A DNA stretch of 26,037 nt from IMG/VR virus record IMGVR_UViG_3300032731_000147, positions 1 to 26,037 of that record. The stretch is one strand, 5' to 3'. Of the stretch, positions 428-15,897 are shown piece by piece; positions within the stretch are counted from its first letter, which is position 1; every line of letters begins with the position of its first letter. A model generated the notes under the pieces. The model did not search any database. It was not told the origin of the DNA and was given only the letters and a program-made list of their open reading frames with translations. The DNA is from a virus. Made by a program: the position numbers and the translations under genes.

Positions 428-1435
428 CTAGCCGTTTGTCTTGAGACACGCCAGGCGGACGTTCTTCCGCTCATAAACGCGATTCCAGTTCACCGCCAGG
501 GCCAGGTTCGCGTTCGACGGATTTTTCGGCGACGTGTTGCTGTTCGTCGTGTCCGTCCAGGCGATCCCGCGCGGATGCAGAATCATGTGTCGGCGCGTAA
601 TGATGTAATCCTCACCAGCCAGGGTGTCGCGATCTGTCTCGATAGGAGCCTTCGGGGACCCTTCGCCGCGGGCGATCGCGCCCAGGCCGAAGATATAATT
701 CGTGTACTCGTAACCGGACAGCCCGGCCCCGGCTTGCGCGGTCCGCGGACAGGTGTCGTCCACAATCACCGTCAGGCCCATAAAAGACCGCTTGATGATC
801 TGACCCACGGAGTCCTTTTCGTATTCGATCAGATCGCGCTTCGCCATCCCGGCTTCGACGACGGAATGGACGAACATCGCGGTCAGCTTGTCCTTCGCGT
901 CGCCCATCGTCTGACAGGCGTCGATTACCGTTTCGCCCGTGACCAGGTTGTCGTTCGTCGCGTTCAGACCATCGTCGATCGCTACGTCGTGAATCATGTC
1001 CCCGGCGTCGTTGTCCGCGTTGTCCGCGAATACGCCCGCCAGGATGTTGATCAGGGCAGTCTGTTCGCGCCGGGCCCAGTATCCTGCCAGAAGGTCCGCG
1101 ATCGCCGCCAGGGGATCGTCCCCTGCAAGGGCGGATGCAAGGTCGTTTGCACCGAAGGCGCGTCCGCGCATGATCAGGACCGCCTGGTCCTGTCCGGTAC
1201 CAATCGATCCGGGCGTCAGGGATCCGGAGTCCTGAAGGGCTTCGTCGTCCCCCGTCAGGTCGGACCAGAAAGGCATATCGATCAGGCGTCCGCCCTTCTG
1301 GGCGAGTACGTTCAAGGCGTCGTCCTGTGAAATCAGTCCCGCCTGTACCAGGGCCGAAAGGACCGCGGTCCGTTCGATCATATACGGATTGAACACTTCG
1401 GGGACGACGATGTCAGTCACTTTTGTCGCGGCCAT
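428..1435 (-). CDS. Major capsid protein
   Basis: This 335-residue protein is the likely major head subunit. It starts with MAATKVTDIVVPEVFNPY, contains MPFWSDLTGDDE at about 54-65, and has a long mixed alpha/beta body, a pattern I recognise from HK97-fold coat proteins of siphovirus- and podovirus-like phages. Its position supports this: the genes upstream are terminase, portal and scaffold, the classical head order. No N-terminal delta domain is visible, which fits the separate scaffold gene. The ATG at 1435 has a GAAGGACCAA ribosome binding site. The exact capsid family cannot be assigned without a profile or structure search. Confidence 0.85.
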   Translation of the reverse strand: MAATKVTDIVVPEVFNPYMIERTAVLSALVQAGLISQDDALNVLAQKGGRLIDMPFWSDLTGDDEALQDSGSLTPGSIGTGQDQAVLIMRGRAFGANDLASALAGDDPLAAIADLLAGYWARREQTALINILAGVFADNADNDAGDMIHDVAIDDGLNATNDNLVTGETVIDACQTMGDAKDKLTAMFVHSVVEAGMAKRDLIEYEKDSVGQIIKRSFMGLTVIVDDTCPRTAQAGAGLSGYEYTNYIFGLGAIARGEGSPKAPIETDRDTLAGEDYIITRRHMILHPRGIAWTDTTNSNTSPKNPSNANLALAVNWNRVYERKNVRLACLKTNG

Positions 1436-1468
1436 TTGGTCCTTCTTTCCTTTGTTCGTGGGGCGGCG

Positions 1469-2176
1469 TTATGCCGCCAGTTCAGCCTTCAATTTCTTCG
1501 CCAGTTCCGGGTCTTCCTTCGTGATCTGTCCCTGAAGGGTCAGATTGAAGCTTTCCTTCTTCCAGGGGTTTTTCACCGTGACGCCCTTGAACGTCAGTCG
1601 ACGATTCGGATCGCCGCCGGACCCGTGTCCGGACAGGTCAGCCAGGACCGCTTCGTTCGCGACCCTGAAGCTTTCGACGATCGGGGTCGTGATCTTGTCG
1701 TCGTCCAGGTCTTCCGGGTTTAATTCGGTGAATTTCGACTTGAAGACCGAAAGCATCGCTTCGCCGTCGACGCCCTTTTCCAGGAAAGTAATCTTGTGCT
1801 TTGCGACCAGGGCGTTCACCTTCGCGTCACGCGTAAGCTTGACCGTGTCCGCCTTCATCGTTTCCGCGGACGCTTCCATGTCGGCGATCTTGACCTTCAG
1901 GCGTTCATTCTCCGCCTTCAGGCGATCCAGTTCGGGCTTATCCTTGTCGGCGACCTGTGTCGCGGCTTCCTCCAGTTCGCGGACCTTCGCTTCCGCCGCG
2001 GTCTTCGCATCTTCCGCCGCCTGGGCCCGTTCTTCGGCCTTGCGTCGGGCGTTCGCCGCGGATTCGTCCAGGGCCTTTTGCAAGTTCCCGGAGTCCGCCA
2101 GGAAAGCCTTTTCGTCGTCGGTCAGGGCGTCAAATCCTTCCGCCTTGATCTTCGCCAGGATTGCCTTCAAGTTCAT
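1469..2176 (-). CDS. Scaffold protein
   Basis: This 235-residue protein lies between portal and major capsid, the usual place of the assembly scaffold. Residues about 30-115 are a highly charged Ala/Glu/Lys/Arg coiled coil with leucine heptads, followed by a compact C-terminal part (about 120-235). Phage scaffolding proteins of the GPO or minor structural GP20 type look the same: a helical rod with a basic C-terminus that binds the capsid protein and is lost as the head matures. The C-terminal stretch contains several Lys/Arg pairs that could contact capsid. The ATG at 2176 is preceded by a run of G residues acting as the ribosome binding site. No protease motif is seen, so a fused maturation protease is unlikely. 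Confidence 0.8.
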   Translation of the reverse strand: MNLKAILAKIKAEGFDALTDDEKAFLADSGNLQKALDESAANARRKAEERAQAAEDAKTAAEAKVRELEEAATQVADKDKPELDRLKAENERLKVKIADMEASAETMKADTVKLTRDAKVNALVAKHKITFLEKGVDGEAMLSVFKSKFTELNPEDLDDDKITTPIVESFRVANEAVLADLSGHGSGGDPNRRLTFKGVTVKNPWKKESFNLTLQGQITKEDPELAKKLKAELAA

Positions 2177-2265
2177 CGACCATTCCCCCCAGTTTCAGGA
2201 TTTTACGGATCCAGATCCGCAACGCGGAAGACGTTCAGCGTTCCGCGACGCCGCTTTGTTCACAA

Positions 2266-2283
2266 TCGGCCAGGATTTCCGGA
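2266..2283 (-). repeat. Intergenic repeat, copy A (TTCGGCCAGGATTTCCG family)
   Basis: The plus strand reads TCGGCCAGGATTTCCGGA just beyond the portal stop codon. The same 15-17 bp core occurs after the terminase stop, at the end of the HTH gene and after the gene at 25614. It is not a good inverted repeat, so it is not an obvious terminator. Confidence 0.7.
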
Positions 2284-2286
2284 CCG

Positions 2287-3768
2287 TCAAATCGCGGGTT
2301 CGGCGACGACGGACGCCGCGATCGCGTCCAGGTTGTCGAATTGCATCGCGTCAATTTCTTCGTCGATGGTCTTCAGGACTTCCGGGTCGATCGTCAGCAT
2401 TCGGGACAATCCCTTGACCTTGACCCGCATGATCTGTTTCAGCATGGTCGGCGTTACGTTCGCGGATTGTTCCAGTTCCAGGGCGGTCCGCATGTTCGCG
2501 TCGATGTCGGGAAGGTCGAATGTCCGGGGATACTTTGGGACATACTCCGGGAAGGACGTGTCCAGAAGGCGGGCCTTCGCGACCGCCTTCCTTTCGGCGT
2601 CTTCCAGGGTGTCGGCGTGATCCGCCAGGGTCGCTTCGATGTCGCGATTATCCCAGGCTTTCGATTCGGCGGATTGAACCTGCTTCGAATCGGACTTCAG
2701 GGCTTGTCCGGCGATCTCGAAAAGTTCCTTCCGCCGCCGCATGATTTCATTCGGAAGCGGGTCGATCGCCCCGGAATCCGGTGAAATGATCCTTGTCAGT
2801 CCGTTTGTTTCCGCCGTTTCAAAAAGCGGATATTCGATCCCGCGGACCAGTTCGATCGCGTCGTCGAAGGACCGCCCGGACTTCGCCATGATTTCATCGA
2901 TCAGTCCGGTCGAAATTACCAGTTGCGGGAAGACCCCTTTCAGAAGGTTTTCGTCGTGTGCCGATTCGAGTTGAAGAAGCGACGCCTGGACGCGTTCGGC
3001 GTCGTCAAACCAGTGGGGCTTCGCGGAAGGCTTTCCGATCAGGACCCAGGGGATTATGTTCGCCGACAGGGTGAAGGGTTCTTCCCGTTCAATTTCGTGT
3101 GCGTTGTCGGACTTCAGGTAAAGGCGCGTCCCGCCGCCGGGCGTCCATAGCGTCCGGACGACCTGGGTCTTTGCTTCGGCTTCCGGGTCTTCGTTGTCGT
3201 AAAGCGTTTCCTGGGACAGAAGCCAGGATAGGCTTCCGGTCGTGTCGAATCGCCAGTCGACGACTTCGGTCGATCGCCACAAGGAAAAGAAGATCCGGTC
3301 CCCGGCGTCCAGCCTGTCCTGGACGGAACGGACGGACGGTAACCCGGTCGAAGGATCCATCCCTGGGGATCCGCGGTCGACCTGAATCCAGGCCCATTGT
3401 CCGGTGATATACGCCCGACAGGCTTCCTTGAAAAATGCCGTTATCGATTCGTTTGTCTTCGTCGCGTCCTGGGCGAAGTCCGGATCGATGCCTTCGCGGG
3501 GGACGTCCTGGGCGAAGATCAGTTGAACGATCTTCGTCACGATCCGGGAAGCGTAGTTGACCAGGGCCGCGCGTTCCTTCCGGGATTTGATCTCCCCATC
3601 CTTCGAGCCTTCCCACGAAAGGTTTGATTCGGAAGGGAATTTCGAGAGTCTGGCGTTAATGTAGGGCTCCCCCCCGGCGTCAACAAGTTCGTTCCGGTGA
3701 AGTTGCCGAAGACGTTCGGCGAGAATCGCGTGTTTGCGCGTTGCGCGTCGATCGGGTTCTTTTGCCAT
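2287..3768 (-). CDS. Portal protein
   Basis: This 493-residue protein sits between terminase large subunit and scaffold, the place and size expected of a portal. Its N-terminal part contains ERAALVNYASRIVTKIVQLI, and the body has mixed alpha/beta segments with tryptophan-rich stretches such as WRSTEVVDWRFD. The 330-410 region is helical and charged, like the stem and wing of portal proteins. It resembles the SPP1/DUF4055-type portals. The portal forms the dodecameric ring at one head vertex through which DNA is packaged and ejected. The start at 3768 has an AGAGGGGG ribosome binding site. A portal role is secure from context; the subfamily is inferred. Confidence 0.82.
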   Translation of the reverse strand: MAKEPDRRATRKHAILAERLRQLHRNELVDAGGEPYINARLSKFPSESNLSWEGSKDGEIKSRKERAALVNYASRIVTKIVQLIFAQDVPREGIDPDFAQDATKTNESITAFFKEACRAYITGQWAWIQVDRGSPGMDPSTGLPSVRSVQDRLDAGDRIFFSLWRSTEVVDWRFDTTGSLSWLLSQETLYDNEDPEAEAKTQVVRTLWTPGGGTRLYLKSDNAHEIEREEPFTLSANIIPWVLIGKPSAKPHWFDDAERVQASLLQLESAHDENLLKGVFPQLVISTGLIDEIMAKSGRSFDDAIELVRGIEYPLFETAETNGLTRIISPDSGAIDPLPNEIMRRRKELFEIAGQALKSDSKQVQSAESKAWDNRDIEATLADHADTLEDAERKAVAKARLLDTSFPEYVPKYPRTFDLPDIDANMRTALELEQSANVTPTMLKQIMRVKVKGLSRMLTIDPEVLKTIDEEIDAMQFDNLDAIAASVVAEPAI

Positions 3769-3787
3769 CGATGCCCCCTCTTTTACA

Positions 3788-3804
3788 TTCGGCCAGGATT
3801 TCCG
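3788..3804 (-). repeat. Intergenic repeat, copy B
   Basis: The 17 bp TTCGGCCAGGATTTCCG lies between the terminase large subunit stop and the portal ribosome binding site. It matches copies at 2266, 5931 and 25592. Confidence 0.7.
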
Positions 3805-3806
3805 CG

Positions 3807-5366
3807 TCAGCGTCCGCGGATTTGATGATAGAATTCAGGCGAAGCGATCCCGTCCCGGTCCTTCGTGAAGGCGTGAAACATGACGGCGGTCGCGTCGACC
3901 GGGTCGTCCTTCCCGCCCGCGGGGAAGTCGCCGAAGCATTTGACGAAGAACGGATTCCATTTCGGATCGCGAAGGACGTGGACACGGCCCGCCGCCATCG
4001 GGACTTCAAGCGGTTCGGCCTTGACGACCTTATCCCCTGGAAGCTTTTCCCCCTGGACCGATACGACCCCGGACAGAAGACGCTTCAGCTTCGCGGACGT
4101 GTCCTTGTACGCGCCGAAGTCTTCGACGTGTTGGGATACCCTTCGACCGTCCTGAATCACCGTGTCGACGATCCTGGCGTCCCGTTCCGGTGCTTCCGCG
4201 CGGATCGCGACCATGTCGGCGACCCAGACTTCGAACGACCGAAGAAGAAGCCCTTCGCGCCGGATCGATTCTTCCCGGACGAATCCCAGGACCCCGCAAG
4301 TCCAGTCCGGATTCTGTTTCTCCGTCTGTTTCTCCGACGACGCCAGGTCCCACCCCCGGCGATATCCTGGAAACTGGAATGCTCCATCCGGGCGGCGGAT
4401 CGCGTTCGGGAAGTCCGCGGGCGAATCGTGAAAGACGATCTGATCGACCTTGAACCTGTTCCCGCCTTCGACCGCTGGATCGCAATCAAGCAAAGCGGGC
4501 GCAAAGGCCCCTTGGGATGAATACTGTTCACGATACCAGATCGCCGGAAAGCGTTCTTCGAACAGGAAGGATCCGTCCCATTGCCCCGTTTTCGGGTCCA
4601 TGTTCCGCGCGGGGAAGCGTAATTCCTGGAACCTGGGGAAGTCCGGGTCTTCCTGCATCTTCGCCAGGGTCCGCCCGCGGACGTCGTCGACGTGCCAGGG
4701 CGTAGCGGTCAGAAGCGTTATCGATACCGGGGCCCGCCTGGACAGGGCGTCCAGGAATCCGTCCCAGGCGCGATTCCGATATGTTTCCGACCGGGCTTCG
4801 AATCGGTTTTTGCAATAGTCGTCGACGTTCAGAAGGGACGCCCCCTTCCCGGTCAGGGCCCCGCCCATCCCCGCCGCCGTGACCCGGCTTCGCGAATTCG
4901 TGACGGACCAGGATCCGACATTCGCCCGGCCCCGTTCAAGTTGCGTATCCGGAAACAGGACTTCGAACGGCTTTGACCGAATGATGTCGTGACAGTCCGC
5001 CGAATATCCTTCGACCAGGTCTTGACCGTAACCCGTGAGAATCACGTCCGGGGACATATCGGAACAGGTCGCCAGGAAATAGGGCGGGAAGGCCCTGGAA
5101 ACCAGATCAGATTTCCCGTGTCGGAACGGAACCGCGATCAGGAGGAAGGTCGAAACTCCGCGGCGATAGTCGGCGATTGCTTGATCCAGGGCGTCGCATA
5201 TCGCCCTTGTGTGTCGCCCGACGATCAGGTCCCAGGGGTTCCACCATACGAAATGAAGGAAGTCGATCAGGCTTTCGCGGGCGCGGGTCCGCCTGGACAG
5301 TTCGCGCTTGATGCTACGCCGGACCCTGGCGATCCTGACGTCTTCAGTCGTCGCCTTTGCCCGCAT
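3807..5366 (-). CDS. terL: Terminase large subunit
   Basis: This 519-residue ATPase-nuclease drives DNA into the prohead and cuts the concatemer. The Walker A motif is VPFRHGKSD (residues 79-87) and Walker B is LLNVDDY (178-184). The coupling motif LLTATPWH is at 218-225. The RNase H-fold nuclease begins at GWDLASSE with Asp340, and the C-terminal GGKDDPVDATAVM carries the late acidic residues. I chose ATG at 5366, with a GGGGAAGG ribosome binding site 8 bases upstream. An in-frame TTG at 5384 would add six residues. The start overlaps the terminase small subunit gene by 23 bases, so translation is probably coupled. The DNA packaging type cannot be read reliably from this sequence alone. Confidence 0.95.
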   Translation of the reverse strand: MRAKATTEDVRIARVRRSIKRELSRRTRARESLIDFLHFVWWNPWDLIVGRHTRAICDALDQAIADYRRGVSTFLLIAVPFRHGKSDLVSRAFPPYFLATCSDMSPDVILTGYGQDLVEGYSADCHDIIRSKPFEVLFPDTQLERGRANVGSWSVTNSRSRVTAAGMGGALTGKGASLLNVDDYCKNRFEARSETYRNRAWDGFLDALSRRAPVSITLLTATPWHVDDVRGRTLAKMQEDPDFPRFQELRFPARNMDPKTGQWDGSFLFEERFPAIWYREQYSSQGAFAPALLDCDPAVEGGNRFKVDQIVFHDSPADFPNAIRRPDGAFQFPGYRRGWDLASSEKQTEKQNPDWTCGVLGFVREESIRREGLLLRSFEVWVADMVAIRAEAPERDARIVDTVIQDGRRVSQHVEDFGAYKDTSAKLKRLLSGVVSVQGEKLPGDKVVKAEPLEVPMAAGRVHVLRDPKWNPFFVKCFGDFPAGGKDDPVDATAVMFHAFTKDRDGIASPEFYHQIRGR

Positions 5367-5910
5367 CGCCGCCGCCTTCCCCAATCAGTTCGTTCAGTTC
5401 GTCGTCCGGCATATCTTCCAGGCGACCGCGGCGGATCCTGACGTCCTTCGGGGCTTCCCATCCTTCAAGCTTCGCGATCGTTTCGATCAGTTCGCGGAAC
5501 GAATGAAGGCGGACCGTCGAAGCCTTCCCGTTTTCGTAATTGACGACTTCCCGGATCGCATGGATCAGGTCGGGATTCGCTTTGATAACGGCGGGGTCTA
5601 GACTTATGATTCCCCCGGCGTTGACGCGCATCGCCTTGCGGAAGATTTCGAAGGACGTCTTGACGCCGACGGTCAGCATTTCCAGGGCTTCCGTCTTCTT
5701 CAGGATGTTCCGGCGCGATACCTTCCCGCCCAGTTCGGCGACCCGCTGTATCACTGTCCGCCCCTTGATGTCGGGTCGGTTCGCTACCTTCGAAGCCTCC
5801 GACTTCGACTTCCCCTTGAACCCGGCGCGGCGATAGGCTTGACACTCCGAATCCCCTAAAAACATCCGTTGCGCCATCTTTTCACGGCGCGGGTCTTTCA
5901 ATGCTGGCAT
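5344..5910 (-). CDS. terS: Terminase small subunit
   Basis: This 188-residue protein resembles the Terminase_2 family. It opens with a helix-turn-helix-like segment that recognises the packaging site: residues about 8-60 include MFLGDSECQAYRRAGF and a region matching the usual 'A..AG....A...A..L' pattern. A helical middle and an acidic tail (EDMPDDELNELIGEG) follow, as in proteins that oligomerise and hand DNA to the large subunit. The adjacent, overlapping terL confirms the assignment. The ATG at 5910 has a GGTAAGGGGGG ribosome binding site. The gene follows an HTH protein gene by only 15 bases. Confidence 0.88.
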   Translation of the reverse strand: MPALKDPRREKMAQRMFLGDSECQAYRRAGFKGKSKSEASKVANRPDIKGRTVIQRVAELGGKVSRRNILKKTEALEMLTVGVKTSFEIFRKAMRVNAGGIISLDPAVIKANPDLIHAIREVVNYENGKASTVRLHSFRELIETIAKLEGWEAPKDVRIRRGRLEDMPDDELNELIGEGGGDAGKGDD

Positions 5911-5925
5911 GGTGTCGATCCCCCC

Positions 5926-6441
5926 TTACCTTCGGCCAGGCTTTCCGACCGTCTTTTTCGCCCTGCGATAGGCCCGGATCTGTAAGGCTTCCCCCAGGGC
6001 AGGCCATTCCCGCCGCGCCTTGTGTAAGCGATCATGGGCCGTAGAAAGCCCGATCCCCAGGCGTTCGGCGATCTCCCGGAACGGACATCCTGGATTCGCG
6101 ATCCGTTCCATGACGATTTCCCGCGTCGTCACGTCCAGGGACAGGACGGTCTTCATCGCATAGGACAGGACCGCGAACGGGGATTCCGGATCCGGTCCCG
6201 CGGATTCTTCCGCCGCGCATTCGTGAACATTCGGACAAAACGAAACGTGCGTCCGGCCCGCGTGTGACCGTTGCCCTTCGAATTGATCAAGATTCTTGTT
6301 CGCCTTCCTGGTCGACATACATCGGGCGCAAGGGGTCTTCTTCCAGGGCGTCGTCCTGTACTCCCCCGCGGCGATCTTCAGGGAAACCGGACACTTGTGA
6401 CAGGCTGAACCGTTCGCGTCAGATTTGGATTTCTTTGACAT
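5926..6441 (-). CDS. Zinc-binding HTH regulator, sigma region 4-like
   Basis: This 171-residue protein has two parts. The N-terminus carries paired cysteines (C14, C17, C38, C41, with C69 and C75 further on) that could hold zinc. Residues about 100-150 form a helix-turn-helix like sigma-70 region 4 or LuxR-type domains: LDVTTREIVMERI, then FREIAERLGIGLSTAHDRLHKARREW. Proteins of this kind are common just before terminase genes in phages and are presumed to switch on late transcription; here that is inference. The ATG at 6441 lies 23 bases inside the RusA gene, with AGGGGCGATG as a ribosome binding site. Its C-terminus runs into one copy of the intergenic repeat found at three other places. 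Confidence 0.75.
   Translation of the reverse strand: MSKKSKSDANGSACHKCPVSLKIAAGEYRTTPWKKTPCARCMSTRKANKNLDQFEGQRSHAGRTHVSFCPNVHECAAEESAGPDPESPFAVLSYAMKTVLSLDVTTREIVMERIANPGCPFREIAERLGIGLSTAHDRLHKARREWPALGEALQIRAYRRAKKTVGKPGRR
5931..5947 (-). repeat. Intergenic repeat family, copy C (within gene end)
   Basis: TTCGGCCAGGCTTTCCG, one mismatch from copies A, B and D. Here it forms the last codons of the HTH gene, immediately before the terminase small subunit ribosome binding site. Confidence 0.6.
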
Positions 6442-6925
6442 TGATCATCGCCCCTTCCGCGTTATTGTCGAAGCGTTTTTCCGCGACGACGCGGACGACC
6501 TGGGCGTCGTCGTGAAAGACGACCCCCGTCAGAGAGTCCAGGACGTTCCGGATCAGCTTGTCGATGTCCGGCTTCCCGGTTGCGGAGTGTGGCGCGGCCT
6601 TCCGGAGTCCGGCGGATCCGCTTTCCCGGTCGGGGATCCCGGCTAGAATGCGGAAGTGATTGTCGGGGCGGCGGACGAAGAATTCGATGGACACTTCGAC
6701 GGGGATCCCGGCGGGGATCGGCGGGCGTCCCCGCATTCCTTCCCGCGCGAAGACCTTGACCAGGTGTCCGAAGTGTTCGCTTCTGGGGTTGTCGGGAATC
6801 AGGCGCGTCACGTTGCGCCCGGCCCTGGTCTTCCCGTTGATAGGCTTCCAGGATCCCTTCGGTTGCGCCTTCCCGCGGGCGTAGAATGTCACTTGCAAGA
6901 CGTCGCGGCCCCGTTCCCGCGTCAT
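6419..6925 (-). CDS. rusA: RusA-like Holliday junction resolvase
   Basis: This 168-residue protein is a RusA-family endonuclease, which cuts four-way DNA junctions with Mg2+ as cofactor. The hallmark is KPDIDKLIRNVLDSL (residues 118-132) followed by GVVFHDDAQVV (134-144); the aspartates at 120, 122, 130, 139 and 140 correspond to the acidic active site and the conserved DD of the family. The N-terminal YARGKAQPKGS also fits RusA. It lies just before the terminase genes, where phage resolvases often remove branches from DNA before packaging. The ATG at 6925 overlaps the preceding stop as ATGA and has an AGGGGGAAAG ribosome binding site. Confidence 0.92.
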   Translation of the reverse strand: MTRERGRDVLQVTFYARGKAQPKGSWKPINGKTRAGRNVTRLIPDNPRSEHFGHLVKVFAREGMRGRPPIPAGIPVEVSIEFFVRRPDNHFRILAGIPDRESGSAGLRKAAPHSATGKPDIDKLIRNVLDSLTGVVFHDDAQVVRVVAEKRFDNNAEGAMINVKEIQI

Positions 6926-7095
6926 TTATTCTTTCCCCCTGGAAGGACGTAGATCGTCGCGACGTCGGTCGCTTCCGGATATTTCTCCCGGATCGATCGG
7001 GCGGCGTCGCCCGCGCCTTCAGGTCCTTCGCCGATGATAACCGTTTCCTGGCGGACCGTTTCGTCTATGGTGAATCTAACCCTGGCGACTGCCAT
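6922..7095 (-). CDS. Small protein of unknown function, 57 residues
   Basis: The protein reads MAVARVRFTIDETVRQETVI at the start and ends in IYVLPGGKNK. It is a compact alpha/beta sequence with no Cys and no membrane segment. The ATG at 7095 has a GAAGGGGG ribosome binding site and the TGA overlaps the RusA start as ATGA, which supports real translation. It is the first gene after the candidate promoter at 7141-7169. I do not recognise the family. Confidence 0.7.
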   Translation of the reverse strand: MAVARVRFTIDETVRQETVIIGEGPEGAGDAARSIREKYPEATDVATIYVLPGGKNK

Positions 7096-7140
7096 TTGTG
7101 CCCCCTTCAGGTTTCGCGTGTGTTCGTCGTTGAGTCTTTG

Positions 7141-7169
7141 ATCATGGTCCCGCGGCGTCGATTCGTCAA
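7141..7169 (-). promoter_or_regulatory. Candidate sigma-70-type promoter before the RusA-terminase operon
   Basis: On the minus strand TTGACG (7169-7164) and CATGAT (7146-7141) are separated by exactly 17 bases, 5/6 and 4/6 matches to the consensus boxes. The site lies between the stop at 7175 and the ribosome binding site of the gene at 7095, so it could drive RusA, HTH and terminase expression. The leader contains AACACACGCGAA, similar to a motif seen in other leaders of this phage. Confidence 0.5.
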
Positions 7170-7174
7170 GCGTT

Positions 7175-7408
7175 CTAGTCGACGAAGGGTCGGTCGACGT
7201 GGGGACATTGCGGTTGAAGCGGACGATTGAATGTCAGAACGCTCCACCATATACGCCCGCGGAAGAAGACCTTGAACCGTTCGCTCCATGTCAGAGCCCA
7301 ACATGAAACGACTTCCCCGTCGTCCGCCCTGAAGACTGGAAGCGGAAGATATTCCGGTTGGTCCTCCGCCAAAACGCAATTCACTTCCGGGAATTCAATC
7401 GGCTTCAT
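7175..7408 (-). CDS. Conserved phage protein of unknown function, 77 residues
   Basis: The protein begins MKPIEFPEVNCVLAEDQPEY and contains paired tryptophans (WALTWSERFKVFFRG, then RIWWSVLTFN). I recognise this opening and the 'LTFN.PLQPQ' ending from small uncharacterised phage proteins found in many tailed phages. No function is known to me. The ATG at 7408 overlaps the upstream stop as ATGA. Confidence 0.75.
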   Translation of the reverse strand: MKPIEFPEVNCVLAEDQPEYLPLPVFRADDGEVVSCWALTWSERFKVFFRGRIWWSVLTFNRPLQPQCPHVDRPFVD

Positions 7409-7845
7409 CCTTCGTTCTCCTTTTTCGCTTCTTCGATCATCGCTTCCATGTCGGCGACGCTAACCCCTGGACACTGTTTTTCAAAGAACGCCCGGAACCG
7501 CGCCGGGTCGCTTGCGTAGGCTTCGACCGGATGAAGCTTCGCGAAGATTTCGAACGCCCGACGATCGGACAGGTCTTCGGACGTGTTCGTTTCGTGGAAT
7601 GCTTCTTCCAGGGCTTCCCGGATGTCGCTATCGCCCCAGGCTTCCGTCAGGGCGCGATTATAATCCCCCCAGGGGATCCCCGCTTCCCCTATTGCCCCCA
7701 ACATGATCGCGCCCCGTTGCGCGTCCGTCAGGGCTTCCCAGGGGACGGGGGATTCGAACCCTGGAATCCCTGCGGCGTTCCATTCGGCAAGGCTTCGCTT
7801 TCCCAGGGATACCAAAGCGCGATAAAGCATTTCAAACACGTTCAT
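7405..7845 (-). CDS. Hypothetical protein, 146 residues
   Basis: This is an acidic, mostly helical protein (MNVFEMLYRALVSLGKRSLA at the start, ending DMEAMIEEAKKENEG). I see no catalytic motif, membrane segment or Cys cluster. It is the first native phage gene after the repeat at 7854-7916, and that repeat supplies its leader. The ribosome binding site is AAGGGGGTGG. It overlaps the next gene as ATGA. Confidence 0.7.
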   Translation of the reverse strand: MNVFEMLYRALVSLGKRSLAEWNAAGIPGFESPVPWEALTDAQRGAIMLGAIGEAGIPWGDYNRALTEAWGDSDIREALEEAFHETNTSEDLSDRRAFEIFAKLHPVEAYASDPARFRAFFEKQCPGVSVADMEAMIEEAKKENEG

Positions 7846-7853
7846 AATTCCAC

Positions 7854-7917
7854 CCCCTTCTCGTCGGCGTTTCCGTCTAGTCAGTATTACGGCTTTCCGC
7901 TCAGTAAACTGTTGGGG
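7854..7917. repeat. Acceptor-like repeat, copy 1
   Basis: Bases 7869-7916 match 14213-14260 at 47 of 48 positions, and 7854-7885 match 15696-15727 exactly (32 bp). The plus strand ends in GTTGGGG, a near match to the integron core GTTRRRY, exactly where the foreign-looking island 7918-8703 begins. It contains an imperfect hairpin (TTACGG...GTAA with a bulge) and a degenerate RYYYAAC-like box GTCTAGT at 7875-7881. It also carries the leader of the gene at 7845. Confidence 0.7.
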
Positions 7918-8115
7918 CTACCTGATTTGATCTTGCGCCTCATTCCAATCGAATCCTTCCGGGGCCTGCAACAGCCCGAAGTCCCCAGTCTGCTGTTGGT
8001 AGTCCTCCAGCGACCCAGAAACAACCGGCTTGCTGTCCGTCCCAGGGCACTCATCTTGATGCACGGTGTAGTGACAATCGTAATACGTGTTGCATATTCC
8101 GCAGTATCCAGCCAT
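7918..8115 (-). CDS. Small zinc-finger-like protein in cassette-like island
   Basis: The 65-residue protein starts MAGYCGICNTYYDC, with C5, C8, C14, H19 and C23 forming a likely zinc-binding knuckle, followed by an acidic, glutamine-rich tail. I chose the ATG at 8115 because a strong GGAGGATGAG ribosome binding site precedes it; upstream in-frame ATGs lack one. The stop codon directly abuts CCCCAAC at 7917-7911, and GTTGGGG lies upstream at 8139-8133, so the gene sits between two integron-core-like heptamers. Its codon use differs from the native phage genes. Function unknown. Confidence 0.65.
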   Translation of the reverse strand: MAGYCGICNTYYDCHYTVHQDECPGTDSKPVVSGSLEDYQQQTGDFGLLQAPEGFDWNEAQDQIR

Positions 8116-8132
8116 CTCATCCTCCATTTCTG

Positions 8133-8192
8133 CCCCAACAAAGGGCTGCAATCTACCTCGTTACACTCGGAGCTTGAGCCCCGGCGTTGGCG
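8133..8192. repeat. Degenerate attC-like site
   Basis: On the plus strand CCCCAAC (8133-8139) and GTTGGCG (8186-8192) bracket a 60 bp stretch with an inner stem GGGCT/AGCCC. The spacing resembles the better sites at 14661-15476, but both core boxes deviate from RYYYAAC/GTTRRRY. The preceding gene stops inside it, as at the better sites. Confidence 0.35.
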
Positions 8193-14210: not shown

Positions 14211-14261
14211 CTGTTTCCGTCTAGTCAGTATTACGGCTTTCCGCTCAGTAACCTGTTGGGC
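14211..14261. repeat. Acceptor-like repeat, copy 2, bordering the cassette array
   Basis: Bases 14213-14260 match 7869-7916 with a single mismatch. The plus strand ends in GTTGGGC (14255-14261), a perfect integron core GTTRRRY, at the exact border between native phage DNA (lower coordinates) and the cassette block. No good RYYYAAC partner is present, only GTCTAGT at 14219-14225. A lone core site next to the first cassette is the arrangement of an attI-type or secondary acceptor site. Confidence 0.65.
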
Positions 14262-14349
14262 GAGAGAGGAATGCGCCTCCCCCGCCCGTGGTTTCAGTCT
14301 GCGTGAGTTCCTTCAACGTCCCGCGCTTCCCTGTCCTTCGTGCGCTGGT

Positions 14350-14610
14350 CTAACGCCGCCAGAGCCGCGCCGCCATCACGGCACGCGCTTGGCGCAGAAA
14401 CTCGTGGTAGCGATCGCGCCACTTCTCGGCAGACGTGCGCCACTCGCCGCTCGCTAAATCCCAGTTGCCGCCGTTGGCGTTGGCGATCAGCACCCACGCC
14501 ATTTCAAGGTGGTCAAACATTTCGTCTCGTTCCTCGCTCACGGCCTGAAGCAGTCCTGCAACCTGCGGCACGGCTTCGTACTCAACTCCGTCAATTTCAA
14601 TCTTGCTCAT
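14350..14610 (-). CDS. Cassette gene, helical protein of unknown function
   Basis: The 86-residue protein starts MSKIEIDGVEYEAVPQVAGL and continues as a long charged helix with LLQAVSEERDEM and WRDRYHEFLRQAR. This looks like a small coiled-coil protein; similar openings occur in uncharacterised phage and mobile-element proteins. A very strong AAGGAGACAGAGAG ribosome binding site supports ATG at 14610. Upstream lies the core GTTGGGC of the site at 14661-14720; downstream, after 88 noncoding bases, lies the GTTGGGC core at 14255-14261. Codon use differs from native phage genes. Confidence 0.7.
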   Translation of the reverse strand: MSKIEIDGVEYEAVPQVAGLLQAVSEERDEMFDHLEMAWVLIANANGGNWDLASGEWRTSAEKWRDRYHEFLRQARAVMAARLWRR

Positions 14611-14660
14611 CTCTCTGTCTCCTTGCCCCGTGTTGTTTTTGCTCCGGTCGGGATGGGGAC

Positions 14661-14720
14661 GCCCAACCAGAGCGTGCAGTGTACGCGGACAAGCCGCGCC
14701 ACTGACGTTAATCGTTGGGT
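14661..14720. repeat. attC-like site 4 (60 bp)
   Basis: On the plus strand GCCCAAC (14661-14667) and GTTGGGT (14714-14720) are the complementary R boxes. Inside, GCGTGCAGTG/CACTGACG pair with one unpaired extra base, and the loop holds a further hairpin CGCGG/CCGCG. This is the R-spacer-L-loop-L-spacer-R layout of integron attC sites. Its interior differs from the three sites at higher coordinates, so it is not a simple duplication. Confidence 0.8.
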
Positions 14721-14900
14721 TTAATACTTGTCCGCGTCAAAATACTCCTCCGCTTCTTCCTTCGTCATGGGTTCAGACGCATATCTGTTTGCCCACGTTT
14801 CATCTTCCTTGCTTGGGTTTGTGTCGCGTCCGAAGCAATTCGGGCAGGCCCGCAGTTTCCCTTGGAACACGTTTCCGCATGTGTTGCACTTCATTCTCAT
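14721..14900 (-). CDS. Cassette gene, zinc-ribbon mini-protein
   Basis: Translation from ATG at 14900 gives 59 residues starting MRMKCNTCGNVFQGKLRACP with a second pair at CPNC: C5, C8, C19, C22, a classic zinc ribbon. The rest is acidic (KEDETWANRY, MTKEEAEEYF). The stop TAA begins at the base next to attC-like site 4, and the start lies 18 bases from site 3, so the gene fills its cassette. The ribosome binding site is AAAGGGGGAAG. A nucleic-acid or protein-binding role is plausible; no specific function is known. Confidence 0.8.
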   Translation of the reverse strand: MRMKCNTCGNVFQGKLRACPNCFGRDTNPSKEDETWANRYASEPMTKEEAEEYFDADKY

Positions 14901-14917
14901 GTCTTCCCCCTTTCAAA

Positions 14918-14971
14918 ACCCAACCAGCAAATGGAGCGTACGGAATACCGCCGCTCATTTAATCGTTGGGT
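14918..14971. repeat. attC-like site 3 (54 bp)
   Basis: ACCCAAC (14918-14924) and GTTGGGT (14965-14971) are perfect 7 bp complements. Between them lie a 4-base unpaired spacer on each side (CAGC, AATC), inner arms AAATGGAGCG and CGCTCATTT with a single extra G in the left arm, and a 13-base loop. This matches attC architecture in full. Confidence 0.85.
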
Positions 14972-15139
14972 TTACGTATGTCGCCCGTTTGCAATGTCTA
15001 TCGCCTCCATGTCTGTCAGTCCGTGCTTTTCGGCAAACCGCTTGACACACGCCTTCCACTCTCCGATGGTCTTCAACTTGGCAATCTTCGCCTTCAGTGT
15101 GGATATGTCGCCCAATGTAATTGTGTCTGTGTTGCTCAT
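14972..15139 (-). CDS. Cassette gene, small helical protein
   Basis: The 55-residue protein begins MSNTDTITLGDISTLKAKIA and ends DIANGRHT, mostly charged helix. I chose ATG at 15139 because AAGGATGAG precedes it; an upstream in-frame ATG lies inside the attC-like site. The stop TAA directly abuts site 3. The leader AAGGATGAGATGAGC is the same as in the next cassette upstream. Function unknown. Confidence 0.7.
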   Translation of the reverse strand: MSNTDTITLGDISTLKAKIAKLKTIGEWKACVKRFAEKHGLTDMEAIDIANGRHT

Positions 15140-15163
15140 CTCATCCTTTCCGCCGATTGGCTC

Positions 15164-15215
15164 ACCCAACCAGCAAATCGAGCGCACGTTACCGCCGCTC
15201 ATTTAAGCGTTGGGC
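15164..15215. repeat. attC-like site 2 (52 bp)
   Basis: ACCCAAC (15164-15170) and GTTGGGC (15209-15215) flank arms AAATCGAGCG and CGCTCATTT with one extra C in the left arm. The stop codon of the gene at 15203 lies inside the site. It is close to sites 1 and 3 in sequence but differs in the loop (CACGTTACCGC). Confidence 0.85.
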
Positions 15216-15400
15216 AACACATCTGGGACGGAATCCCATAGTGTAGCCGCCCGTTCATGCACGTCCATCAGCGCCTTGATGCTGCGTGCGTATGTCGTGG
15301 ACTTGTCGCCAAGCCGATCATACGAGCGGTGACACAGAGACACCCTCTTGTGTGCCTCGCGTCGGTAATCCTTGACGCTCACAGTGTAAACCTTGCTCAT
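15203..15400 (-). CDS. Cassette gene, hypothetical protein, 65 residues
   Basis: The protein starts MSKVYTVSVKDYRREAHKRV and is basic and helical in the first two thirds, ending DVLPNA. The last codons CCC AAC GCT TAA are part of attC-like site 2, a usual feature of integron cassette genes. A GGGAAGGATGAG ribosome binding site precedes ATG at 15400. I see no recognisable domain. Confidence 0.75.
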   Translation of the reverse strand: MSKVYTVSVKDYRREAHKRVSLCHRSYDRLGDKSTTYARSIKALMDVHERAATLWDSVPDVLPNA

Positions 15401-15423
15401 CTCATCCTTCCCGCTGATCAGTC

Positions 15424-15476
15424 ACCCAACCAGCAATTGAGCGTACGGAATACCGCCGCTCATTTAATCGTTGGGT
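15424..15476. repeat. attC-like site 1 (53 bp)
   Basis: ACCCAAC (15424-15430) and GTTGGGT (15470-15476) are perfect complements. The inner arms AATTGAGCG and CGCTCATTT pair with a mismatch in place of the extra base seen at sites 2-4. The loop is the same as in site 3. The stop codon of the upstream gene lies inside the site. Confidence 0.75.
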
Positions 15477-15685
15477 GTGTCTAGCTCCGGTCGGGATTGG
15501 CATGATTCGCCGCGAGCCGCGAGCCATAGCCCGACTAGCGCATGCACTACCAGTAAGCAGAACGCAGCAATAAAGCACTGCCTCGGCAATACGATCATGG
15601 ATGTTAAACACAAGCTTATGATCGCCAAAGCCAATGAGAACCGTCCGATATGTCTAAGCTTGTCATAATTCGTCATCCGATTCAT
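15464..15685 (-). CDS. Cassette gene, two-helix membrane protein
   Basis: The 73-residue protein starts MNRMTNYDKLRHIGRFSLAL and has two hydrophobic segments (about 15-33 and 37-57), so it probably spans the inner membrane twice. The end (ELDTPND) is encoded by attC-like site 1. The ATG at 15685 overlaps the preceding stop as ATGA. The ribosome binding site GGGGAGGAT lies directly beside repeat copy 3. Function unknown; small membrane proteins are common among cassette genes and in phage lysis or exclusion systems. Confidence 0.7.
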   Translation of the reverse strand: MNRMTNYDKLRHIGRFSLALAIISLCLTSMIVLPRQCFIAAFCLLVVHALVGLWLAARGESCQSRPELDTPND

Positions 15686-15897
15686 CCCCTATCCTCCCCT
15701 TCTCGTCGGCGTTTCCGTCTAGTCAGTCCCTCACTTCCGGCGTTCGATTTACGATGATTCCCATCCCACACGACGAACGCAAGGCCCAGCATCGCCCCGC
15801 CTGACATCCACCTGTAGAACGGGACATCTTGCACACCCATGAACGACAACCCGACCGTCCAAAGGACGAGGCCGACCAGAAATCGAATAATCCTCAT
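15682..15897 (-). CDS. Small membrane protein with repeat-derived C-terminus
   Basis: This 71-residue protein begins MRIIRFLVGLVLWTVGLSFM, with two hydrophobic segments (about 3-20 and 29-43) and then a strongly basic tail LTRRKRRREGEDRG. The tail is encoded by repeat copy 3, the same DNA that is noncoding leader at 7854-7885. The gene may therefore have been extended or truncated when that repeat was joined to it. The ATG at 15897 has a GGGAAGG ribosome binding site; an upstream in-frame ATG would overlap the previous gene. Confidence 0.65.
   Translation of the reverse strand: MRIIRFLVGLVLWTVGLSFMGVQDVPFYRWMSGGAMLGLAFVVWDGNHRKSNAGSEGLTRRKRRREGEDRG
15696..15727. repeat. Acceptor-like repeat, copy 3 (partial)
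   Basis: These 32 bases are identical to 7854-7885. The match stops sharply at AGTCAGT; the ATTACGG hairpin and GTTGGG core found in copies 1 and 2 are missing. The repeat lies at the high-coordinate edge of the cassette block and is coding here. Confidence 0.7.

Follow-up and report, generated by a model that had tools for sequence, protein, structure and literature searches.

The window, the whole 26-kb stretch of DNA analysed here (26,037 nucleotides; IMG/VR virus record IMGVR_UViG_3300032731_000147), is identified as phage by its capsid, portal, and terminase genes, and nearly all of its genes lie on the minus strand. The gene content includes a major head protein, a portal, a large terminase, and a RusA-like resolvase, along with a replication initiator, a Cas4-like exonuclease, and an SbcC-like ATPase. 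Two loci in this window, array B and locus A, combine small genes with integron-type attC sites.

Array B (14,213-15,727) opens on the plus strand with an entry sequence (14213-14255) of 43 bp that is common to locus A, with 1 mismatch over a 48-bp repeat, and that occupies an attI-like position. It ends in an attC-like L'-R' half (14241-14261, plus strand; CCGCTCAGTAACCTG^TTGGGC), which lacks R''-L'' and is similar to the corresponding half of the attC sites in the array itself (CCGCTCATTTAATCGTTGGGT). The four attC sites of the array, s4 (14661-14720), s3 (14918-14971), s2 (15164-15215), and s1 (15424-15476), are on the plus strand, and the genes between them are on the minus strand. In order of position, these cassette genes encode an 86-aa protein with no assigned function (14350-14610, Shine-Dalgarno AAGGAG), a 59-aa zinc ribbon with CxxC..CxxC (14721-14900; phrog_6586, E 6e-4), a helical protein with no assigned function of 55 aa from an ATG with a Shine-Dalgarno (14972-15139), and a 65-aa protein whose C-terminus, ..VLPNA*, is encoded within s2 (15203-15400). 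Next comes a gene for a small membrane protein of 73 aa (15464-15685, minus strand) ending ..TPND* within s1, which may be either a cassette or a disrupted phage gene. PADLOC detected nothing among the cassette proteins of the window. The right edge of the array (15696-15727, plus strand) is a 32-bp segment identical to 7854-7885.

Likewise, locus A presents on the plus strand an entry sequence (7854-7917) that repeats the left edge of array B and ends ..CCGCTCAGTAAACTG^TTGGGG, then a cassette different from those of array B, and finally a fifth attC site (8133-8192, plus strand; CCCCAAC..GTTGGCG) with an extra base on the plus-strand 5' arm. The gene of this cassette (7918-8115, minus strand) encodes a Cys/His-rich protein of 65 aa from an ATG with GGAGG, and its open frame reaches 8151. 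The half-site at which both loci begin is the same, with the end G^TTGGG, and the 43-bp common sequence lies upstream of it. A 17-bp repeat, GTTTCCGTCTAGTCAGT, is present at both edges of array B (14213-14229 and 15711-15727) and in locus A (7869-7885), and on the minus strand its copies are just upstream of three different genes. As the core at 15711-15727 recurs at 14213, array B has direct repeats on both flanks, which suggests another recombination event there; the repeat may have a regulatory role in the phage or serve as a core for recombination. The entry sequence was found in no other viral contig, and the 17-bp core, searched elsewhere as a 16-mer, matched unrelated DNA.

Regarding the surroundings of array B, the ATPase and 374-aa genes on either side of it also occur in two related phage contigs (L005 and L006) with no array between them, so that array B was either inserted in a variable slot or lost there. 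The 374-aa protein of these relatives is only 55-59% identical to that of the window phage, and the comparison therefore does not give a clean empty site. A search for further phage relatives through the Cas4-like protein returned the same two only, plus two distant ones. In collections of phages and plasmids, the array had no DNA relatives beyond short chance matches, and two exact-pattern scans of 84,980 species for a bacterial integron with matching attC sites gave 0 matches and then 16 by chance, none of them surrounded by attC sites.

Identity of the attC sites

The sequence-only reading had placed four attC-like sites in array B, and its coordinates for them were exact: RYYYAAC/GTTRRRY ends are present, and the perfect or near-perfect pairing it described amounts to 6/7 or 7/7 in s1-s4. 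The fifth site, in which the ends include GTTGGCG, pairs at 6/7. The single extra base claimed for three sites was confirmed in s2, s3, and s4, each time on the plus-strand 5' arm, and unpaired spacers accompany this extrahelical base of the L stem; s1 has a mismatch in place of a clean bulge, and the scanner treats this mismatch as a bulge. L stems of the four array B sites measure 8-10 bp. The strict motif with its stem was observed 4 times on the plus strand, against 0.001 expected per 26-kb strand according to 1000 first-order Markov sequences of the window's composition. Approximately 0.1 half-sites of the similarity seen at the array B entry are expected per 26-kb strand.

A covariance model, R1, was made for this analysis and is distinct from that of IntegronFinder; it was built from 17 bacterial attC sites taken from integrase-anchored loci of Pseudomonadota genomes, none of them from the window, which avoids circularity. 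At E<=10, R1 yielded exactly five matches in the window, all on the plus strand and zero on the minus strand, with scores of 21.8-26.7 bits (E 6.6e-5 to 1.2e-3). Specifically, s1 scored 21.8 bits (E 1.2e-3), s4 22.7 bits, s3 24.2 bits, the locus A site, which had not been listed before, 25.6 bits (E 1.3e-4), and s2 26.7 bits (E 6.6e-5). These values overlap with the 22.6-33.4 bits that the same model gave on genuine integron sites of a Providencia genome (L150). Among other viral loci, 432 kb in total, R1 scored highest on attC-like sites in three further phage contigs, L016 and L054/L055. The sequence-only reading would have been given up had covariance scores fallen below threshold on both strands, and this equivalent search returned the opposite on the plus strand.

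No integron integrase was detected in the 26-kb record, possibly a fragment, with TIGR02249 or tblastn. Together, the R1 matches and this search support integron-type attC sites between small genes, without an integrase, in a phage. Both features that define a CALIN were found, namely at least two attC sites recognized by a covariance model within a few kb (four in 816 bp, and one 6.5 kb away) and no integron integrase nearby in the record, which is possibly a fragment. The loci do not make up a complete integron (intI, attI, Pc), since no intI was detected in the record and the entry sequence is attI-like in position only.

Gene direction relative to the attC strand

Of 20 strict sites in bacterial arrays anchored by an integrase, 19 have the extra base in the 5' arm of the cassette-forward strand, so that attC polarity can be read from it. 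Both this rule and the strand of the R1 matches assign the attC top strand of the window to the plus strand. The same control overturned the minus strand as attC top strand, and an interpretation of the left repeat of array B as a truncated last attC was dropped after it. The cassette genes of the window, in turn, are all on the minus strand with Shine-Dalgarno starts, as is the rest of the phage; the window cassettes are therefore reversed, in contrast to canonical cassettes, whose gene runs along the attC top strand. Being inverted with respect to attC polarity, these genes share the direction of the phage operon. Stop codons do fall in or next to the sites, as noted earlier, but they belong to genes that read attC backwards, and neither this antisense direction nor the second locus nor the half-site start repeated at both loci had been recognized.

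The direction of cassette genes was then surveyed by running two attC-shaped patterns over viral contigs and scanning the fetched loci with R1, a procedure that covers two attC sequence types only; outside the window, ORFs were called by a simple Shine-Dalgarno rule and not by a trained gene finder. At the cassette level, counting viral contigs with at least two sites and excluding isolate contig L264 (4 forward, 1 reverse), 29 cassettes were reverse and 3 forward, whereas in integrase-anchored bacterial arrays the same rule scored 18 cassettes as forward, 2 as reverse, and 10 as ambiguous (Fisher p 5e-9). When independent viral contigs were counted, 17 were reverse and 3 forward (L182, L272, and L273). 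A second bacterial sample, not selected by intI and composed of R1 matches in 200 Pseudomonadota genomes, contained 24 forward, 4 reverse, and 2 ambiguous cassettes (Fisher p 1.1e-6 for the two sets). The bacterial polarity controls with usable matches are nearly all Pseudomonadota; in Bacteroidota and cyanobacterial integrons intI was found, but only 5 attC matches were obtained, too few for a control. As a separate observation, 85 of 297 sampled genomes of the Bacteroidota, the phylum of G463, bear an integron integrase, and the Pseudomonadota-trained model recognises almost no attC near the fetched loci.

Reversal thus recurs in most other metagenomic phage contigs checked and is rare in bacterial integrons. 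Given that most other attC-bearing metagenomic phage contigs share it, the reversed layout looks like a phage-specific form and no accident, although it is not universal, as L182, L272, L273, and the published phage TJE1 are forward.

Other phage contigs and known cassette systems

Among the other contigs, L268 (IMGVR_UViG_3300032053_001104) carries terminase and portal genes and, at 3540-8160, about ten attC sites with every callable cassette reversed. One of these reversed cassettes encodes a MazG-like pyrophosphohydrolase (reverse frame, E 1e-18) of certain reading frame, and zinc-ribbon proteins occur among its small reversed cassettes. L268 is the clearest example of reversal and suits better than the window as a model case. 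Contig L192 (IMGVR_UViG_3300042988_001306) has six attC sites at 1044-3340, most of them near-identical; its consecutive genes extend through the attC sites and end in a common attC-encoded C-terminal tail, PNARDHRAPEGRSGASTCWA, and one of the cassettes is a DNA methyltransferase. In an unrelated phage, L016 (IMGVR_UViG_3300033064_000832; 930-970, 640-712), the 26-nt L'-R' end of s2, TTACCGCCGCTCATTTAAGCGTTGGG, was found again, and a reversed cassette is flanked by a half-site and a full attC. Half-site starts were found in both L192 and L016. In L054 (9783-10423) and L055 (11076-11716), distant relatives of the window phage with 28% identity in the Cas4-like protein, there are two attC-like sites of 85 bp, and the genes with them are reversed. 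Genes ending inside attC hairpins (..PNA*, ..DA*) were observed in many phages. The search for cultured relatives of the L268, L192, and L270 arrays gave nothing useful.

When compared to known systems, the window resembles the CALINs reported by Qi et al. 2023 (PMC9892861) in 17 phages, where IntI1 recombined 5 of 6 phage sites tested. Those of Tetrasphaera phage TJE1, Pseudoalteromonas phage PH101, and Polaribacter phage P12002L are, like the loci described here, integrase-less attC clusters with small genes mostly of no known function. Because of that report, integrase-less cassettes in phages are no longer novel, and the earlier statement that they are not a standard finding holds only in part. 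The reported cassettes of TJE1 and PH101 follow one direction, in a typical structure, and divergent sites occur in one phage; in TJE1, as checked here, the genes run along the attC top strand, whereas those of the window run against it, and the window also differs in having two loci with one common entry sequence. Systematic reversal relative to attC is not described in PMC9892861, and a literature search, with subscription journals mostly outside its coverage, returned no report of it.

Sedentary chromosomal and class 1 integrons share with the window the attC architecture (R'', L'', L', R', and the extrahelical base) and head-to-tail small cassettes. In contrast, the window has no intI in its record, its genes are antisense to attC, and its entry is a half-attC in place of an attI beside intI. 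The attI/delta-attI and attG insertion sites (PMC12901181 and the attG work cited there) likewise present a core from which the first cassette begins although no complete, folded attC is there; the putative entry of the window differs in retaining an attC-like L'-R' half and in occurring twice in the phage.

Origin and significance of the reversed arrays

We consider it likely that the window loci are reverse-polarity CALINs, presumably moved in trans by a host IntI and probably read by phage transcription. In this proposal, the host would provide an integron integrase that recombines the attC sites in the form of folded bottom strands, and the half-attC entry with a G^TTRRR core at which each locus begins may be an attI-like end where cassettes join. 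Expression of the cassette genes would depend on phage transcription, whose direction they follow, and not on an integron Pc. The recombinogenic bottom strand would then be the coding strand, that is, the non-template strand of transcription, and it would also be the lagging-strand template if the genes run with replication. For a chromosomal array, inversion that places attC bottom strands on the lagging-strand template is reported to raise cassette excision (PMC8946536, PMC11023631); given that geometry, reversed arrays may be unusually mobile, if their genes run with replication. If a host integron took up a reversed cassette, the cassette would be antisense to Pc. More tentatively, phages may possess a cassette system of their own, with reversed genes expressed by phage transcription and silent in host integrons, a recombinogenic strand presented where it is most often single-stranded, and the SOS-induced integrase of the host as helper.

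Several other explanations were weighed against reverse-polarity CALINs. The array could be a fossil, a piece of host cassettes acquired by homologous or illegitimate recombination whose sites are unused and whose reversal reflects the ligation direction that let the genes be read. In favour of this, the 17-bp direct repeat flanks array B on either side and recurs in locus A, no integrase was detected in the record, and the half-sites resemble broken attC sites. Nevertheless, either ligation direction leaves the polarity of gene against attC unchanged, as the reversal lies within each cassette; moreover, two separate loci hold different cassettes behind one common entry sequence, and the intact 6-7/7 end pairing of all five sites argues for upkeep, which together make a fossil array improbable. 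Less probable still is that the hairpins, descended from or resembling attC, today have a role at the RNA level between phage genes, in termination, processing, or stability. A hairpin does regularly follow each small gene, and genes end within hairpins in many phages, but RNA function would need neither RYYYAAC/GTTRRRY ends with an extrahelical base nor the AACAA/GCGTT asymmetry on which the strand preference of the attC-trained model is based, and an Rfam search had no match at array B.

It is very unlikely, finally, that the polarity was misread because the opposite arm carries the extra base in the source lineage, with the cassettes being ordinary forward ones. In favour of this, that lineage was not found among the 84,980 species scanned, and the non-Pseudomonadota integrons yielded too few matches to serve as a control; against it, the locus A site and many viral sites are textbook attC (for example GCCTAACAA..GGCGTTAGG) of the kind that reads forward in bacteria, and several independent phage lineages agree.

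Earlier descriptions treat phage cassettes as fragments similar to bacterial arrays. If gene direction in phages is consistently reversed, contrary to the rule in bacteria, this would mean that phages shape or keep a cassette pool of their own. Such arrays can be sought by a sequence mark, genes antisense to attC that often end ..PNA or ..DA at the site. Reversal, if true, would also make the passage of cassettes between phages and integrons, a route that has been proposed with little shown, directly testable.
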